Positions 800 through 15,075 of a stretch of DNA of 22,805 nucleotides are shown piece after piece (position 1 is the stretch's first letter; the number at the start of each line of letters is the position of its first letter). A program made the translations under genes and the position numbers. The stretch comes from a virus, in the IMG/VR virus record IMGVR_UViG_3300010379_000064, positions 1-22,805 of that record; one strand, given 5' to 3'. The notes under the pieces were generated by a model. The model did no database searches, had not been told where the DNA came from, and was given only the letters and a program-made list of their open reading frames with translations.

Positions 800-2455
800 G
801 TGCCTCTCGCCGACTTGCTGACCGGCCGTCCCCGCGGGAAGCACCACGCCGCAGAGACGGCGCGGACGGTCACGGTGATCGAGGCCGGCCCGGTCAGGGC
901 CATGTCAGCGGACCAGGCCGCCGCCGCCCGCACCGTCACCCGTTCCGGATTCGCGTACGGCATCGGGCCCGGCGGCATGGACGAAGTCCAGTCCGGTATC
1001 GGCGCGGCCACAGCCTCGGATCGCAAGAGCCTGCTGACCGAGCTGTGGGAAGCGTACCTGTGCTGCCCGTGGGCGTGGGTCGCCGTCCAGACCATCGCCC
1101 GCACCGTCACCGCCGGCGGCCTGGTCACGGACTGGGACGCCGACAGCGGCGAGGGCGATCAGGAGGCCCCGGACAAGCCGGCGAATGTCCTGGCGCTGGA
1201 AGCGCTGCTCGATTATGTCAACCCGGCGCAGAACATCCGCCAGCTCTGCCGCAACTTCATCGCCGACCTGCTCGTCTTCGGCGACGCCTACCTCGAGGTC
1301 GTCTGGATCGGGTCGCTGCCGGTCGCCCTGTACAACCAGGACTCGCCGACGACCACCCCGATCGCCGACTCCCACGGCGCGGTCTCCCGCTACGTGCAGG
1401 TGTCCGACTACGGGCAGCGGGCCGACTTCGAGCCGCACGAGATCATCCACGTATCCCTGGACGCGGCCCGCCCGTCGGTGCTCGGCATCTCCCCGATGCA
1501 GGCCGCCGTCGAGTCCGTGAAGGTGTGGCTGTTCGCCAACGGCACCGGCAAGGAGGCCGCGAAGAAAGGCCTGCCGCCGAACTTCCACGCCGACTTCCCG
1601 GCGGGCGCGGCCGACAAGGACATGCGGACCTGGCGGGACCAGCACGCCACCAGGAACCTCGGCGCGAGGAACATCGGCGCGCCGATCATCACCAAGGGCG
1701 GCGTGAAGCTCGCCGAGCTGCAGACGGGGAAGATCGGCGACGTCATCGCGCTGAAGAACCAGGCGCGGGACGAGATCCTGTCCGACTTCGGCGTCCCCCC
1801 GGCCGAGGGCGGGGTGATCGAGGCGGGGAACCTCGGCGGCGGCACGGGCGATTCACAGCACCGGACATATCAGATCAATACGTGCGGCCCGATCGGCGAG
1901 CTCGTCATCGAGGCACTGAACTTCGCGCTCACCATCCAGGCGTTCAGGATCACGGACTGGAAGCTGAAGTTCGGCGAGGTCGACTACCGCGACTCGGTCA
2001 TCGTGGAGGGCATCCGCTCGCAGCGGCTCCGCGACGGCGCCTGGACGCTGAACAAGTACCGCGCCGAGATCGGCGAGCCGCCGGTGCCCGGCGGGGATGA
2101 CGCAGTGCTCGTGGACAGGCAGAACCTGGTCCTGTGGGCCGACATGGCAGCGATGTCGAAGGCGGTCGTGGCAGGCAAGGGCGCGCCCGGTGTGGCCGCC
2201 GGGGAGCAGCCACCGGGAGGGGAGCCGGTCGCAGGCGACCCGTCGGCACCGGACGCGCCGCCGGGTGACGGCGACCCGGACCAGCCGGCGGGCAAGTCCG
2301 GCATGCCTAAGAGCCCGCGAGAGTCACTGCCGCCAGCGCCCCGGGAAGCGCTGCGGGCCACTCAGCTTGCCCTGTACCAGGCACGGCTTCGTGAGGCGAT
2401 GGGACGCATGCCCATCGCCGGGTCAGCCTCATCGACGATCGGCGGGAACCGATGA
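800..2455 (+). CDS. Phage portal protein (HK97 family)
   Basis: The portal is the dodecameric ring at the capsid vertex through which DNA is packaged and to which the tail attaches. The 551-residue product has the HK97-type layout: an N-terminal arm, an early helical segment with LTELWEAYLCCPWAWVAVQTIAR, a central stretch with FGDAYLEVVW and HEIIHVS, then GISPMQAAVESVKV and the long helix region. The motif AGNLGGGTGDSQHRTYQINT and the tail segment YRAEIGEPPVPGGDD are characteristic of portals of this family. The C-terminal ~110 residues are Pro/Gly/Ala-rich linker plus a short helix (RATQLALYQARLREAMGRM). The GTG at 800 is chosen because GGGAGG lies 5 bases upstream; an internal ATG at 903 would cut the N-terminal arm. 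The stop overlaps the next start (ATGA). Confidence 0.92.
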   Translation: MPLADLLTGRPRGKHHAAETARTVTVIEAGPVRAMSADQAAAARTVTRSGFAYGIGPGGMDEVQSGIGAATASDRKSLLTELWEAYLCCPWAWVAVQTIARTVTAGGLVTDWDADSGEGDQEAPDKPANVLALEALLDYVNPAQNIRQLCRNFIADLLVFGDAYLEVVWIGSLPVALYNQDSPTTTPIADSHGAVSRYVQVSDYGQRADFEPHEIIHVSLDAARPSVLGISPMQAAVESVKVWLFANGTGKEAAKKGLPPNFHADFPAGAADKDMRTWRDQHATRNLGARNIGAPIITKGGVKLAELQTGKIGDVIALKNQARDEILSDFGVPPAEGGVIEAGNLGGGTGDSQHRTYQINTCGPIGELVIEALNFALTIQAFRITDWKLKFGEVDYRDSVIVEGIRSQRLRDGAWTLNKYRAEIGEPPVPGGDDAVLVDRQNLVLWADMAAMSKAVVAGKGAPGVAAGEQPPGGEPVAGDPSAPDAPPGDGDPDQPAGKSGMPKSPRESLPPAPREALRATQLALYQARLREAMGRMPIAGSASSTIGGNR

Positions 2456-8962: not shown

Positions 8963-9027
8963 GACCAGAGCGTATCACGGCTATACGGTACCGGCGACCT
9001 GAAATACTACGCGGCGGGAGGCCGGGC
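8963..9027. promoter_or_regulatory. Divergent intergenic region with dyad and -10-like hexamers
   Basis: This 65-base gap separates the minus-strand zinc-ribbon start from the 2H-MuF start and is visibly less GC-rich than its surroundings. It contains CGTAT…ATACG (8971-8987), a short inverted repeat, and TATACG/TATAGC/GATACG hexamers that could serve as -10 boxes on either strand. GGGAGG at 9016-9021 is the ribosome site for the gene at 9028. No convincing -35 pair was found. Confidence 0.35.
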
Positions 9028-10539
9028 GTGGCGCAGCCGGACTACTCAGACGGCAGCATGCTCGCCCTCTACCCGCCGGCGGAACTGGCCGCCAGGCTCG
9101 CCGTCGATGATGGCCTCGAGCCAGCGGACATCCACCTGACCGTCTGCTACACGGGCAGCGCGGCGGACGTGGACGCCGGCGCGCTGAACGAGGTGGCGGG
9201 CAAGCTCGCGGCGAGCACGGGGCCGCTCACCGGGACGATCTCAGGGCACGCCCGCTTCACCGGCGGCGACTCCGATGTGATCGTCGCCCTGGCTGACTCG
9301 GCCGCGCTCGAAACGCTGCGCGCCGCGGCGCTGGACAAGCTCGCCGAAGCCGGGATCGACTTCCCCCGTGACCACGGGTACTGCCCGCATCTCACTTTGC
9401 GGTATATCGGCGCGGATGATGACGACCCGGTAGGGCGCCTGCCGGCTGAGGATGTCAGCTTCGCCGAGCTTCGCGCGGTCCACGGCGAGGACGTAACCAG
9501 CTACCCGTTCGCCGGTGACATCACCCAGGCGGCCGCCGAGGCGTACGCGGCCGGCTGGGCGCTCAGCGGAGGCCCGTGGACGGATCGTGTCGCCGCCGGC
9601 GCGGTCGCAGCAGCCGAGACAGCCCGCGAGCACGCCGGCGACCCGCACGTCCTGGAGACGACCCTGATTATCGGATCGCTCGAAGGCACCATGGCGCGGT
9701 TCTTCCAGCGGCGGCAGGATCTCACCGAGGCGCACACCGCGACCGTGCTCAGGGCGTGGGAGACGGTCGCCCCGCACGAGCACGCCGGCCCGGTCATCGA
9801 CCGGCTCCGCGCCGAGGTCGGCCCGTTCGGCCCGCTGAACCCGGAGCAGCGGGCCTACCTCCGGATGCTGACCGGCACAGCGGCAGGATCGCTCCTGGCC
9901 GGCGTCTACGCCCACGACAGGCACAGCGACCTGCAAGCCGCCGTGGAAGACGCGCTCCGGTCGGCGATGGCCGAGGGCAAAGCCGGCGTGCTCGCGCTGA
10001 ACGCCGAGAAGCACGGCCACACGGTCACCGAGTCAGACAGCAGGACGTACTCGTGGGACGCCGCCTACCAGGCCATCTACGACCGACTGGCCAACCTCCC
10101 CAGCCTGCCGCTCCTGGCGCAGCAGTGGATCCAGCGGATGCTCGCCGGATGCGCCGCCGACGTCGGCCGGCTCCTCGCCCGGCTCTTCGAGGAAGGCGCG
10201 TCGCGCGCCGAGATGGCCACGGCGGTCACGACCGCGATCGAGGCTGACGGGGAGACCTCGGCGGCCGTCCGCGCGGTGACCGCGTTCACGCAGCAGGCGA
10301 TGGCACAGGCCATGTCCCAGGCATCACTGGACCTGTACGCATCAGAGGGCCTGCCCGAATGCAGTTTCATCACAGCCGGCGACGACAGGGTCTGCCCGAT
10401 CTGTGACGACTACGAGGAAAACAACCCGTACTCGCTTTCTGACTGCCCCGTCCCGGCGATCCATCCAGGCTGCCGGTGCGTGGTCGTGCCGGCCGATGAC
10501 GTGGCCCCGTTCAAGGCGCTAGCCGCCTTCCTCGCCTAG
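9028..10539 (+). CDS. Minor head (MuF-type) protein fused to an N-terminal 2H phosphoesterase domain
   Basis: The 503-residue product has two parts. Residues ~1-165 carry the paired H-x-T-x motifs of the 2H phosphoesterase (LigT/2'-5' RNA ligase-like) superfamily: H36-L-T38-V and H121-L-T123-L, 85 residues apart as in that fold. Enzymes of this class cleave or join 2'-5' and cyclic phosphodiesters. Residues ~380-495 match phage head morphogenesis proteins (SPP1 gp7 / Mu gpF): a helical lead, then C456-x2-C459, NPYS, and the signature H479-P-G-C482-R-C484. MuF proteins are packaged in the capsid in few copies and can be ejected with the DNA. The middle is helical (transition region). GTG 9028 has GGGAGG six bases upstream. 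The stop is a TAG followed at once by the next gene's GGGAGG. Both catalytic motifs look intact. Confidence 0.88.
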   Translation: MAQPDYSDGSMLALYPPAELAARLAVDDGLEPADIHLTVCYTGSAADVDAGALNEVAGKLAASTGPLTGTISGHARFTGGDSDVIVALADSAALETLRAAALDKLAEAGIDFPRDHGYCPHLTLRYIGADDDDPVGRLPAEDVSFAELRAVHGEDVTSYPFAGDITQAAAEAYAAGWALSGGPWTDRVAAGAVAAAETAREHAGDPHVLETTLIIGSLEGTMARFFQRRQDLTEAHTATVLRAWETVAPHEHAGPVIDRLRAEVGPFGPLNPEQRAYLRMLTGTAAGSLLAGVYAHDRHSDLQAAVEDALRSAMAEGKAGVLALNAEKHGHTVTESDSRTYSWDAAYQAIYDRLANLPSLPLLAQQWIQRMLAGCAADVGRLLARLFEEGASRAEMATAVTTAIEADGETSAAVRAVTAFTQQAMAQAMSQASLDLYASEGLPECSFITAGDDRVCPICDDYEENNPYSLSDCPVPAIHPGCRCVVVPADDVAPFKALAAFLA

Positions 10540-10549
10540 GGAGGCAGCG

Positions 10550-10975
10550 ATGCCCGACCGCCACGGGCCGCCAGTCCGCCGCATCTGGTCCTCCGCCTCC
10601 GGGCTCGGCACCACCATCGCGGGCGCGGGGAACTCCGGGAACTGGCAGCCGGCGGCCGTCCCGCCGTGGGACCCCGACTTCGAGACGCCCGTCGACCTGC
10701 GGAATGTCACCGACCTGGCGCTGATGGTGTCCATCGCCGCGATCGTCTCCAGCCCGTCGCTGACGGTGAACCTGGACCTGTACGACGACCTGGGGAACCT
10801 GTACGCCGCGTTCCTGACCACGGGCGCGCTTGTCGCCGCCGGGGCGACGGTGAAGTCCTGCGGCCTGCACGGGCCGACCACCTCCTACATAGTGCTGCCC
10901 GGCTGGGGCCGCGTGTCGTGGACCTGCACGGGCGGGTCGGTGACCGGCACCGAGATCTCGCTGATGGCCCGCTGA
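10550..10975 (+). CDS. Small beta-rich virion protein (decoration-like)
   Basis: This 141-residue protein has a strong ribosome site (GGGAGG before ATG 10550). After a Trp-rich start (IWSSASGLGTTIAGAGNSGNW) come regular strands: TDLALMVSIAAIVSS, SLTVNLDLYDDLGNLYAAFLTTG, GRVSWTCTGGSV and GTEISLMAR. This is a compact beta sandwich of the size of capsid decoration proteins. It lies between the MuF gene and the protease/scaffold gene, where accessory head proteins are found. The role is inferred. Confidence 0.7.
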   Translation: MPDRHGPPVRRIWSSASGLGTTIAGAGNSGNWQPAAVPPWDPDFETPVDLRNVTDLALMVSIAAIVSSPSLTVNLDLYDDLGNLYAAFLTTGALVAAGATVKSCGLHGPTTSYIVLPGWGRVSWTCTGGSVTGTEISLMAR

Positions 10976-11375: not shown

Positions 11376-11615
11376 TTGGCCCTTCCCAGGGCCGCGCGGG
11401 AGCGGGCGGCCGAGCACCAGGCGGCAGCCGGGGCGGACGCGTTCGCTGCCATGCTCATCGCAGCGCTCGACCGCCCCGACGTCCGTAAGGCCGTCGTCTC
11501 GGCACTGGCCGGTCACGAGTCCCGCAGGCCGCACCGCAACCCGCCCGCATCGGCCGCAGCCGCCCGCGACCTCAAGGCACGCCTGGTGACCGGCGGAAGG
11601 GGGAGCCGTGGCTAA
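11376..11615 (+). CDS. Small helical basic protein, TTG start
   Basis: A TTG three bases after the previous TGA opens 79 codons in the same frame as the preceding gene, so one codon separates stop from start. The product is mainly helix (RERAAEHQAAAGADAFAAMLIAALDRPDVRKAVVSALAGHE) with a basic tail. No Shine-Dalgarno is visible, so coupling by re-initiation is assumed. The end overlaps the protease start by 8 bases. Function unknown; a small helical scaffold-like role is conceivable. Confidence 0.5.
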   Translation: MALPRAARERAAEHQAAAGADAFAAMLIAALDRPDVRKAVVSALAGHESRRPHRNPPASAAAARDLKARLVTGGRGSRG

Positions 11616-13152
11616 GGCCATCGCGACCATCGGCGGAGTCGGGCTCGCGCCGGGGATCTCGAAAAACCGGCGGCTCTACACCCCGGAGCACATCGTCGGA
11701 GCGGTCGCCCGGGCGCAGAAGCGCCTCAAGGACGGCACCGAGCCGATGGTCATGCTCACCCACCACGCGGCAGGCGATGACAGCCGCGAGATCAGCGGCT
11801 CCCTGACTGCGGTGAGCCTGGACGAGAACGGGCGGCTCCGCTTCGCCTCGGACCTCCCTGACACCCCGGCCGGATGGGACATCGCGAACCTGGCCAGCAC
11901 CGCCGACGGGCAGCCGCCGTTCCTGCGGAACGTGTCGATCCGCGGCTACTGGACGGGCACCGTCCGCACGGTCAAGGGACCCGATGGCCAGCCCGTGGAA
12001 ACTGCGGACGGGCTCATCATCGACGGGCTGGACTTCACCCGGTCACCGGGCGTAGCCGACGCTCAGATCGACACGTTCGCCTGGACCGCAGACGGCACCC
12101 GCACCGAGACCGATGAGCGGGTGCCCATCACCGAGAGCGTCCAGGAGGCGCGCGTGACCGCGATCACCGAAGAGACAGCGACGGAGGCGGCACCGCAGAT
12201 GACGGCTGAGGCGCGGGAAGCGCTGAGGGAGACACTGCGCGCTCTGCCGCCCGAGCCGCCGGTCATCCTCCGCAATGGCCTGTGCGAGGCGTCCAGTGCC
12301 GCGCTGCCGCTGTCGAAGCGGGGCAGCGGCCTGACCGGCGGGAGCAAGGTCTACGCCGATCCGGGCTATCAGGCCGATGGCAAGCAGAGGTATGACCTGA
12401 CCACCAAGGCCCTGGCCAAGGCCGCCTGGTCATATGTGAACCAGAAGGACAACGCGGCCAAGTACACCGCGGCGCAGCTCAAGCGCGTCAAGGGCCGGAT
12501 CATGAAGGCGCTGAAGGCCTTCGGCGTCAAGGTCGCCGCTGAGGGCTGGGTCATCGAGCCCGCGCGTCAGGTCACCGAGTCCGAGCTGCGGGAGTGGTAC
12601 GGCAACTACGGCTCGCCGCAGACCTCCGGCTCCTGGTCGCTGAACGCGTCCAACGGCCCGATCAACCTGTGCCTGTCGTGCTACGGCATGGACCCGGCCG
12701 ACCTTGACCTGATCCTCCGCGCCGCCGCTGACGCTGCGTGCAAGGCCCTGGCCGCGCTGGACCCGGACATGGACGGCGACATCGACGTGGACGGCGCCGG
12801 CTCCGAGGACACCGACCACGACGGCGGCGCAGGCGAGACCGCGCCGGCAGACGGCCCGGCCAGCGTGGCCGAGGCAACCGATACCACGGCACCGGAACCG
12901 GCCGCCGGCGAAACCACGGAAAGGACGGAATCCGCGATGCCGGAGACCACCGCCCCCGCGGCCGAGACCACCGCCCCGGCCGCTCCCGCCTACACCCAGG
13001 CGCAGCTCGACGCGATCATCGAGGCTGCCGCAAACCGGGCACTGGCGGCGTTCGCCGCAGCGCACCCGGCACCTGCGGCCGGGACCGCGGCCGCTGCACC
13101 GGCGGCTGAGGCTGCCCCGGCCGCGCCAGCGGCTCCCGCAGCCGTGACTTAG
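11608..13152 (+). CDS. Capsid maturation protease with a DUF6582-like region and scaffold-like tail
   Basis: GTG 11608 follows GGAAGGGGGAG. The N-terminal ~155 residues resemble phage prohead protease domains: GVGLAPGISKNRRLYTPEHI, a His pair at 52-53 (MLTHH) and S110 in LRNVSIRGYW, the spacing expected for a His/Ser prohead protease. I did not identify a third catalytic residue. Residues ~249-306 (KQRYDLTTKALAKAAWSYVNQ…KYTAAQLKRVKGRIMKALKAFG) match a domain often found in actinophage protease/scaffold proteins. A D-x-D-x-D-G stretch lies near 388-399, followed by a long Ala/Pro/Glu linker. The frame stops at TAG 13150-13152 but continues open to 13503. It sits just before the capsid gene, as proteases do. 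Confidence 0.8.
   Translation: MAKAIATIGGVGLAPGISKNRRLYTPEHIVGAVARAQKRLKDGTEPMVMLTHHAAGDDSREISGSLTAVSLDENGRLRFASDLPDTPAGWDIANLASTADGQPPFLRNVSIRGYWTGTVRTVKGPDGQPVETADGLIIDGLDFTRSPGVADAQIDTFAWTADGTRTETDERVPITESVQEARVTAITEETATEAAPQMTAEAREALRETLRALPPEPPVILRNGLCEASSAALPLSKRGSGLTGGSKVYADPGYQADGKQRYDLTTKALAKAAWSYVNQKDNAAKYTAAQLKRVKGRIMKALKAFGVKVAAEGWVIEPARQVTESELREWYGNYGSPQTSGSWSLNASNGPINLCLSCYGMDPADLDLILRAAADAACKALAALDPDMDGDIDVDGAGSEDTDHDGGAGETAPADGPASVAEATDTTAPEPAAGETTERTESAMPETTAPAAETTAPAAPAYTQAQLDAIIEAAANRALAAFAAAHPAPAAGTAAAAPAAEAAPAAPAAPAAVT
13150..13152 (+). other. In-frame TAG between protease and scaffold-like segment
   Basis: Codons run …GCC GTG ACT TAG ACC GAA GCC GAG AAG…, and the frame stays open for another 350 bases with coding-like composition. 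TAG is used as an ordinary terminator elsewhere in the window (10537-10539, 15479-15481), so whole-genome recoding is unlikely. See findings. Confidence 0.8.
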
Positions 13153-13605: not shown

Positions 13606-13640
13606 TGCCGCATGGCCGCAATGGTCGCCAATCCAACCGT

Positions 13641-13671
13641 GAGCCTTCGCCCGATGGCGGGGGCTCTTCTC
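13641..13671 (+). terminator. Hairpin with T-rich flank just before the capsid gene
   Basis: GAGCCTTCGCC pairs with GGCGGGGGCTC (two G-U pairs) around loop CGAT, giving an 11-bp stem at 13641-13666. It is followed by TTCTCGTT, as in an intrinsic terminator or attenuator. A small second hairpin TTCTC-GTT-GAGAA (13667-13679) overlaps the start of the capsid ribosome site. GGCTC recurs at 13683-13687, so an alternative pairing is available. Confidence 0.5.
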
Positions 13672-13692
13672 GTTGAGAAAGGGGCTCCGGCC

Positions 13693-15075
13693 ATGTCCGA
13701 GCTTCGCGAGGCGCTCACCGCCGCTGGCGCAAGCGCCCTTATCCCCAAGATCATCGACCCGATCCTGGTCGAGTACCAGCGCCGTTTCGCCCCGCTGTGC
13801 CGGTCCGTTCCGACGCAGCCCTGGAAGGGCGACATCTACTACTTCAACCAGCGCACGACTGTCGCGAGCGGCGGCTTCGTCCCCGACGGCGGCGCCCGGC
13901 CCATCTCCACCTCGGTGTACGTGCAGAACCAGTACCAGATGAAGCACGTCCTGACCGTGGGCGGCGTCACCGGGTACACCCAGGAAGTCACCCAGATGGT
14001 CATCGGTGACCTGCGGGCCACTGAAATCATGGGCGCGATCCAGGGCTACTACTGGGACGTCGAGTGCGCCATGGTGTGGGGCTGCGCACTGGCGACCGCG
14101 AACCAGGCGCAGCCGCAGTTCGACGGCCTCGACATCCTCGTGTCCGACTTCACCACCGGCTACAAGAACTCGATCGACTTCGGCGGGAACTCGCTGTCGC
14201 TGGCGATGCTCGACCAGGTGATCAACACCGTCTCCCGGAACTCCTCCCAGCCGGTGCGGGACTCGAGCTGGCAGTTCATCATGTCGACCACGGCGATCGC
14301 GAAGATCGAGCAGCTGCTGACGAACCAGCAGCGGTTCACCCAGGTCGAGATCGCCCCCGGACTCCTGGTGTCCAGCTACAAGAACGTCCCGCTGGTGCCG
14401 ACGTCGTTCCTGAGCCCGTACGGCTACTCGATGGGCACCGTCACCGCGGCCACCGCGACCATCGGCGGGACGATCCCGCTGTCCACCACCTACAAGTACG
14501 TCCTCGCCCCGGTGATCGCGCGGCAGGGCGAGACGCTCCCGTCGGCCGAGGTGTCCCAGGCCACCGGCGGCGGCACCTCCACGAACACCATCACCCTGTC
14601 GTTCACCCCGCCCACCGGCCTGGACGGCCTGTCGCCGCAGTCGTACAAGGTGTACCGGACCGCGGCGGGCGGGCCGCCGGGGTCGGAGACGTTCCTCGGC
14701 TACGTCGACGCGACCGTGGGCCTGGCCGCCGACGGCGTCACGCCCGTCCTGACCAACCAGATCGTCGACACCGGCACCGCGCTGGTGCCGCAGAACTCGA
14801 CCGGCCCGACCGTCCCGTCGACCCTGCCGACCGTGTACTTCGGGACGAACGCGAGCCTGCTGCCCCTGGCAGCCGGCGAGGAGTCGTTCTACCTCATCAG
14901 CCGGGACCGGAACAACGTGGTCAGGCCGTACGTGAGGGAGGCACACCCGGTCGACGTGTATCCAACCACCGCAAGCCCGGACACACTTCCTTACGCAATC
15001 ATAGGTGACACGGTGTTTGCCGTGCGGACCAGCCGATTTGTTGGCCGGGGCGCACGCATGAATCCGTCGCTGTAA
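13693..15075 (+). CDS. Major capsid protein (HK97 fold) with an inserted beta domain
   Basis: The 460-residue product starts at ATG 13693 (MSELREALTAAGASALIP) with GAGAAAGGGG upstream; the ATG at 13612 would add 27 residues spanning a hairpin. It has the features of an HK97-type capsid protein: an N-terminal helical arm, a beta extension (KGDIYYFNQRTTVASGGFVPDGGARP), the spine-helix region, and a P-domain with SSWQFIMSTTAIAKIEQLL. Residues ~247-378 appear to be an inserted module with the strand pattern of a fibronectin-III/Ig-like domain (TTYKYVLAPVIARQGETLPSAE … SYKVYRTAAGG). The fold resumes with TVYFGTNASLLPL and ends in TVFAVRTSRFVGRGARMNPSL. The last ~30 codons use unusual triplets. It follows the protease/scaffold genes as expected. 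Confidence 0.85.
   Translation: MSELREALTAAGASALIPKIIDPILVEYQRRFAPLCRSVPTQPWKGDIYYFNQRTTVASGGFVPDGGARPISTSVYVQNQYQMKHVLTVGGVTGYTQEVTQMVIGDLRATEIMGAIQGYYWDVECAMVWGCALATANQAQPQFDGLDILVSDFTTGYKNSIDFGGNSLSLAMLDQVINTVSRNSSQPVRDSSWQFIMSTTAIAKIEQLLTNQQRFTQVEIAPGLLVSSYKNVPLVPTSFLSPYGYSMGTVTAATATIGGTIPLSTTYKYVLAPVIARQGETLPSAEVSQATGGGTSTNTITLSFTPPTGLDGLSPQSYKVYRTAAGGPPGSETFLGYVDATVGLAADGVTPVLTNQIVDTGTALVPQNSTGPTVPSTLPTVYFGTNASLLPLAAGEESFYLISRDRNNVVRPYVREAHPVDVYPTTASPDTLPYAIIGDTVFAVRTSRFVGRGARMNPSL

Follow-up and report, generated by a model that had tools for sequence, protein, structure and literature searches.

The window analysed here, a 22,805-nucleotide stretch of the IMG/VR virus record IMGVR_UViG_3300010379_000064, carries a gene in which a 2H phosphoesterase domain and a MuF-like head domain are joined in one reading frame, a real and natural fusion from a bacterial virus whose host is probably actinobacterial. 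The balance of our evidence tilts toward reading its product as an accessory effector that the virion carries and that would cut a nucleotide signal or RNA in the infected host.

Passages of a 2017 paper (PMC5512222) describe phage proteins in which a 2H domain is fused to a MuF or portal domain; they state that no such version was ever encountered alongside RNA ligases, and they propose either a role as RNase or the degradation of defence nucleotides; passages of a 2022 study (PMC9503650) suggest that 2H-MuF/portal fusions may be packaged, injected and used to counter nucleotide signalling. The idea of an injected, anti-signalling 2H-MuF protein, raised in an initial annotation of this DNA, is thus already in print in those passages, and the window protein is a further case of the published kind, sharing its two domains and its injection proposal with no essential difference seen from what they describe. 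New here are the size of the family and the constraint acting on it, cassettes scored by presence and absence, a domain order that differs between two MuF lineages, and the occurrence of relatives in isolated phages.

The fusion gene and its surroundings

The residues named in the initial annotation (H36/T38, H121/T123, C456, C459, H479, C482 and C484) are all present in a single frame of 503 residues, which lies between the portal and capsid genes of a head module (Table 1). The same frame occurs in three other IMG/VR contigs (L001-L003) at 99.8% DNA identity, the sole residue change being F112V, and these contigs, together with related fusions in many records, rule out an assembly artefact. 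A search of the whole window against named phages for near-identical DNA gave no match. The GTG start is supported by the frames of four related loci (L023, L021, L017 and L018), which begin at the same place; those of L019 and L015 are longer, and that of L014 is cut.

Table 1. Features of the fusion gene and its head module, in window coordinates
Feature	Position	Strand	Evidence
Portal protein, upstream	800..2455	+	PF04860, 78 bits
Shine-Dalgarno-like GGGAGG	9016..9021	+	Read directly; 6 nt 5' of start codon
2H-MuF fusion gene, 503 aa, GTG start	9028..10539	+	One open frame
2H phosphoesterase domain, residues 1-163	9028..9516	+	PF13563; AF2 pLDDT 95.5; fold matches
HxT motif 1, H36-L-T38	9133..9141	+	H and T in 44/44 cluster representatives
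HxT motif 2, H121-L-T123	9388..9396	+	H in 44/44; T 33, S 10, A 1
MuF-like head domain, residues 164-503	9517..10536	+	PHROG 595/4728/115/2841; minor capsid proteins in whole-protein fold search
MuF Cys/His motif, C456-x2-C459 ... H479-x2-C482-x-C484	10393..10479	+	Invariant in 30 A6 proteins
Downstream neighbour	10550..10975	+	Homologue in 5/5 MuF loci without 2H
DUF6582 head-module protein, between fusion and capsid genes	11608..13152	+	Conserved
Major capsid protein	13612..15075	+	phrog_752, E 5.2e-26; PF17236

The protein encoded at 11608-13152 has DUF6582 in its middle and no PHROG match; most fusion loci with flanks long enough to cover the position have a homologue. A toxin-immunity pairing of the fusion with the neighbour at 10550-10975 was rejected: that gene is kept in all five loci where the 2H domain is absent, and so is not a dedicated immunity gene.

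The MuF-like half

Within the phage head, MuF proteins are located at the portal. The assignment of the C-terminal half to a MuF module, made in the initial annotation, held as to head families and genomic position: PHROG families 595, 4728, 115 and 2841 match this part of the protein with E-values from 1.3e-9 to 6.7e-9, all below 1e-8 (in the best case over residues 378-492), the gene occupies a head-module position, and minor capsid proteins are among the fold matches of the whole 503-residue protein. It did not extend to the curated cut-offs of PF04233 (26 versus 29.6 bits) and TIGR01641 (32.9 versus 39.65), for which reason we use the label MuF-like. Among the 30 A6 proteins, six match PF04233 at E <= 0.001.

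The 2H domain: profile, active site and predicted fold

PF13563 (2_5_RNA_ligase2) matches residues 27-130 with an E-value of 3.8e-9 and 37.2 bits against a Pfam cut-off of 27, and a 2H fold is predicted for the domain with a pLDDT of 95.5 (AF2), bearing out the N-terminal assignment. The whole-protein model (pLDDT 88.1) has a pTM of 0.62, and the relative placing of the two halves was therefore left unused. The pair of HxT motifs had been called intact, and it is so throughout the family: none of 44 cluster representatives has lost the His pair, H36, T38 and H121 are kept in all of them, and position 123 is Thr or Ser in 43. This conservation, together with the invariance of the MuF Cys/His residues, excludes motifs arisen by chance. 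Five positions past the His of the second motif (+5) the residue is Tyr in 41 representatives, Trp in two and Phe in one.

A likeness to T4 Acb1, also put forward in the initial annotation, survives at the level of the superfamily (predicted-fold Z 11.9 for Acb1, against 15-18 for ThpR-type enzymes) and fails at that of the family, because the domain scores 24.2 bits against the Pfam cut-off of 27 for PF23474; that profile is matched at E <= 0.001 by 12 of the 30 A6 proteins. LigT_PEase is likewise missed (18.2 versus 23.3, Pfam), and the ThpR model TIGR02258 by far (21.6 versus 65.7 bits). Membership of Acb1 or ThpR was dropped, both scores lying below the curated cut-off. The TIGR02258 score and the Tyr at +5 lean away from ThpR: a carrier Streptomyces genome has its own ThpR above cut-off, with Arg at the equivalent position (HLTLAR).

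Among solved structures the predicted domain is closest, by VIA-align, to drCPDase (5h7e; Z 17.9, 2.8 A over 155 residues), followed by 1iuh (17.6), E. coli LigT (15.4), human Usb1 (14.6), a rotavirus VP3 domain (13.8), Acb1 (7t26; 11.9) and a penguinpox enzyme (9bkq; 9.9). Because the matches span such varied enzymes, the fold alone does not choose a substrate. The closest folds are cellular RNA cyclic phosphodiesterases rather than Acb1, which counts against our preferred reading; the ThpR/LigT structures (5h7e, 1iuh and 5ldm) share 17-19% identity with the window domain. Sequence searches of the PDB with the single window protein, or with P0003, returned nothing, and those with a 2H profile returned at best two weak matches, to 1vdx, an archaeal ThpR-like protein (E 0.0069), and to 9q2g, a Burkholderia phage protein labelled Acb1 (E 0.013).

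T4 Acb1 (gp57B), the known 2H phosphodiesterase that counters CBASS, shares with the window domain the 2H fold, the HxT/HxT tetrad and, at +5 of each motif, a Tyr (Y49 and Y118 in T4, Y41 and Y126 in the window), but is a small solo protein of 152 residues where the window domain is fused and below the PF23474 cut-off. When the Acb1 base contacts (Y12, W74, F107, E141 and W147) were placed on a profile alignment, W74 adjoined the column of an invariant F77, F107 fell in a gapped loop, and Y12, E141 and W147 lay outside the aligned block. Judged by its active-site residues and predicted fold, the 2H enzyme of the window fusion is apparently intact; two outcomes that the initial annotation named as refuting, a prediction lacking the 2H fold and a His pair lost in homologues, did not occur.

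Family size and constraint

Scanning with the MuF half retrieved 15 loci, ten with a 2H domain, three of which belong to the phage of the window itself, and five without; scanning with the 2H half retrieved 46 loci in viral contigs and three in genome contigs, namely a Streptomyces, a Thermomonosporaceae MAG and Peterkaempfera griseoplana. The 64 open 2H frames, among them three named phage loci and duplicate contigs, fall into 44 clusters at 95% identity. Complete 2H-MuF fusions, defined by an uncut frame and a MuF match over 250 residues, account for 27 of these; the remainder are truncated at the end of a contig, encode 2H by itself, or include a MuF part that is matched by the profile partly or not at all. 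One of them, L069, lies outside the complete fusions but ends in a Cys-rich motif that by eye reads as MuF-like. Every representative lies in a locus with at least one homologue of the portal-protease-capsid module genes, that of L017 being solely a homologue of the neighbour at 10550.

The two halves differ in how closely they are held. Over the 27 complete fusions the mean pairwise identity is 0.543 for the 2H domain and 0.387 for the MuF part, and in 332 of 351 pairs the 2H domains resemble each other more than the MuF parts do. For 12 pairs above 68% 2H identity, which are not independent and in which low MuF identity makes that alignment less sure, dN/dS is 0.15-0.34 in the 2H domain and 0.21-0.99 in the MuF part, with the 2H value lower in 11; in the one exception the MuF part is the more constrained half, which speaks against an effector. 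Measured by these substitution patterns, constraint is shown to be stronger on the enzyme than on its carrier. Similarity in the two halves is correlated (Mantel r 0.316; 5 of 2000 permutations as high), at a level implying that they share their history only partly.

2H relatives also occur in named actinophages, and part of their genes are annotated as head proteins. At E <= 0.01, relatives were found in 288 of 50,697 phage records, 184 of them Mycobacterium phages; among the matches listed, most of these measure about 153-160 kb and have the 2H gene at about 38-44 kb.

Optional presence and two domain orders

In the lineage of the window, five loci (L004, L016, L020, L022 and L024) have the module without a 2H domain, retaining the portal, the MuF protein and homologues of the genes at 10550 and 11608, with the capsid gene scored only where the contig reaches it. 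At L004 (5445-5966), where the MuF protein is without 2H, the portal protein has a tail of about 170 residues with a VDGHHR motif and no PHROG match; the motif is reminiscent of ParB/sulfiredoxin-like domains, and the tail may represent another cargo carried by this module.

Another lineage has a solo 2H gene of about 200 codons, with the same active site, set between portal and ClpP-type protease genes and flanked, in most cases listed, by ATGA/GTGA-type overlaps. A portal scan of this lineage gave 14 loci: six with the cassette, five with the portal gene joined directly to the protease gene, and three not assessable, the independent cases being fewer since L085/L089 and L087/L088 look alike. 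This recurrent and optional tie to head genes fits a packaged cargo better than a part needed in assembly.

In the ClpP lineage the portal protein has AAWN[AS]LAGAR, or a near variant, at its C-terminus whether or not the 2H cassette is there; a W[DNEST]xL peptide lies close to the N-terminus of stand-alone 2H proteins at six of seven loci and close to their C-terminus at three of seven, with looser W-x-x-L forms elsewhere (L034:5920-5990, L067:6528-6603, L032, L046, L052, L053 and L060). We considered two origins for these peptides, as a tag for packaging and as a remnant of recombination; the C-terminal form may be a by-product of recombination, as the 3' end of the L067 2H gene resembles those of portal genes.

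Isolated phages extend the range of arrangements. The Streptomyces griseus phages TP1604 and Geonosis (KP876466 and PP750866) have, like the window, 2H and MuF in one protein, there encoded directly after the portal gene; whereas the window lineage has 2H N-terminal to MuF, theirs has the reverse order (MuF at residues 115-241 and 2H at about 268-435 of about 1190), with a MuF domain of another lineage that the window-lineage profile does not match. Gordonia phage Chidiebere (L006:11755-13835) has a solo 2H gene one small gene past the portal; it directly precedes a gene for an ADP-ribosyltransferase (PF03496, 50.5 bits), the two forming a two-gene effector block. The 2H domain is also found in Orf10 of Gordonia phage GMA2, labelled "putative structural protein", and in Orf18 of GTE6, labelled "hypothetical".

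Two other fusions are also larger than that of the window. At L050 (5531-12037) a frame of at least 2169 residues, cut by the end of the locus, encodes a very large polyvalent head protein with 2H, MuF, an intein-like region (PF14890 below cut-off, phrog_15127), Rho_N, HeH and SAP in that order. An 815-residue 2H-MuF protein at L048 (2493-4940) has a C-terminal extension with a weak likeness to PI3/PI4 kinases (17.2 bits, below cut-off) and to phrog_3162, a possible second effector.

Interpretation and alternatives

Fold, active site, fusion, head position, constraint and optional presence together favour an injected effector, and the 2H domain is probably an accessory one borne by the virion. 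While the head assembles, the MuF-like half would place the protein within it, at the portal or close by; at infection the whole protein, or its 2H half, would enter the host with the DNA. Catalysis by 2H enzymes is independent of metal and proceeds by attack of the adjacent 2'-OH; the two histidines here would in this way cut a phosphodiester bearing a 2'-OH, the likeliest targets being CBASS-type cyclic oligonucleotides or 2'-5'/3'-5' oligoadenylate, with host RNA as the alternative. Knowledge of other MuF proteins leads us to consider packaging of the protein in the virion likely, and its ejection into the host somewhat better than an even chance. As to what the injected domain would act on, a defence nucleotide signal is a tentative choice and RNA, cut by an RNase activity, a slightly more doubtful one, the balance going to repair or other roles; the anti-defence role is plausible. 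A more specific proposal, that of a phosphodiesterase carried in the head that cuts CBASS-type or oligoadenylate signals starting in the first minute of infection, before the phage expresses its genes, as a virion-delivered counterpart of Acb1, is doubtful to a further degree; on this view one and the same cassette would have entered head modules more than once, ahead of MuF in one lineage, behind it in another, and by itself between portal and protease. CD-NTases of the AGS_C type, the one CBASS cyclase family tested, were found in none of the three host genomes that carry relatives, an uninformative result. Acb1 itself is described in passages of PMC9117128, and those of PMC11410667 report LigT-like viral enzymes that target different signals.

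A different form of injected effector would be an RNase resembling MuF polymorphic toxins or Usb1, one that attacks host RNA for the benefit of the phage or to the harm of rival phages; this reading overlaps the RNase branch of our own. MuF proteins are known to carry toxin domains (passages of PMC5576092), and these proteins, like that of the window, unite an enzyme with MuF in one phage head gene; the fold matches include Usb1, and a Usb1-like RNase is one of the two proposals in the passages of PMC5512222. The toxin parts described in passages of PMC5576092 and in the abstract of PMC12226406 are, however, C-terminal, whereas the 2H domain of the window is N-terminal; no dedicated immunity gene was seen in the immediate downstream position tested, the gene there being kept in all five loci without 2H; and the fusion gene is under purifying selection rather than diversified. 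We regard such a toxin as unlikely.

Less probable still is a housekeeping role in RNA repair, in which a 2',3'-cyclic phosphodiesterase of LigT/ThpR type would heal RNA ends together with an RNA ligase, mending tRNAs of host or phage after cleavage by defence nucleases, the tether to the head being an accident of fusion. Passages of PMC7824862 assign 2H enzymes of jumbo phages to such repair beside RNA ligases. The best solved folds are of this type, and phage relatives are often annotated "RNA ligase"; an RNA ligase (PF09414) scores over cut-off in one of the 21 records with 2H, and a further record gives a weak match. In the other 20 it is below cut-off or absent, and it is over cut-off also in one of four records without 2H, although in this sample of 25 chosen records, mostly longer contigs, most are fragments and absence is for that reason weak evidence. 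The distance from TIGR02258, an aromatic residue where the carrier-genome ThpR has Arg, and the presence of that ThpR in a carrier already also speak against repair, for which a head-protein fusion would be an odd place. The initial annotation had kept a housekeeping role in view; the scarcity of the ligase and the syntenic head modules without 2H weaken it, though with little weight. Were the 2H fold instead a binding module with a structural or assembly role in the head and no need of catalysis, its conservation as part of a head protein would be expected; the active-site histidines would not have to persist in all 44 cluster representatives nor in stand-alone proteins of about 200 residues, and similar head modules exist without the domain, so that we hold this to be very improbable.

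In the same 25 records a phage integrase is present in nine of the 21 with 2H and in two of the four without, and carriers therefore include likely temperate phages. In the literature found, as far as its passages extend, the predictions of 2017 and 2022 that the 2H domain is injected have remained inference to date. The literature searched held no virion proteomics for any 2H-MuF protein; virion mass spectrometry of Gordonia phages is published, as passages of PMC4524720 record, and the isolated Streptomyces griseus and Gordonia phages in the families collected here make the prediction directly testable. If the injected effector is real, a head-borne enzyme would remove the lag in which the cell raises its alarm, and the head module would give phages a modular means of delivering an enzyme to actinobacterial cells.
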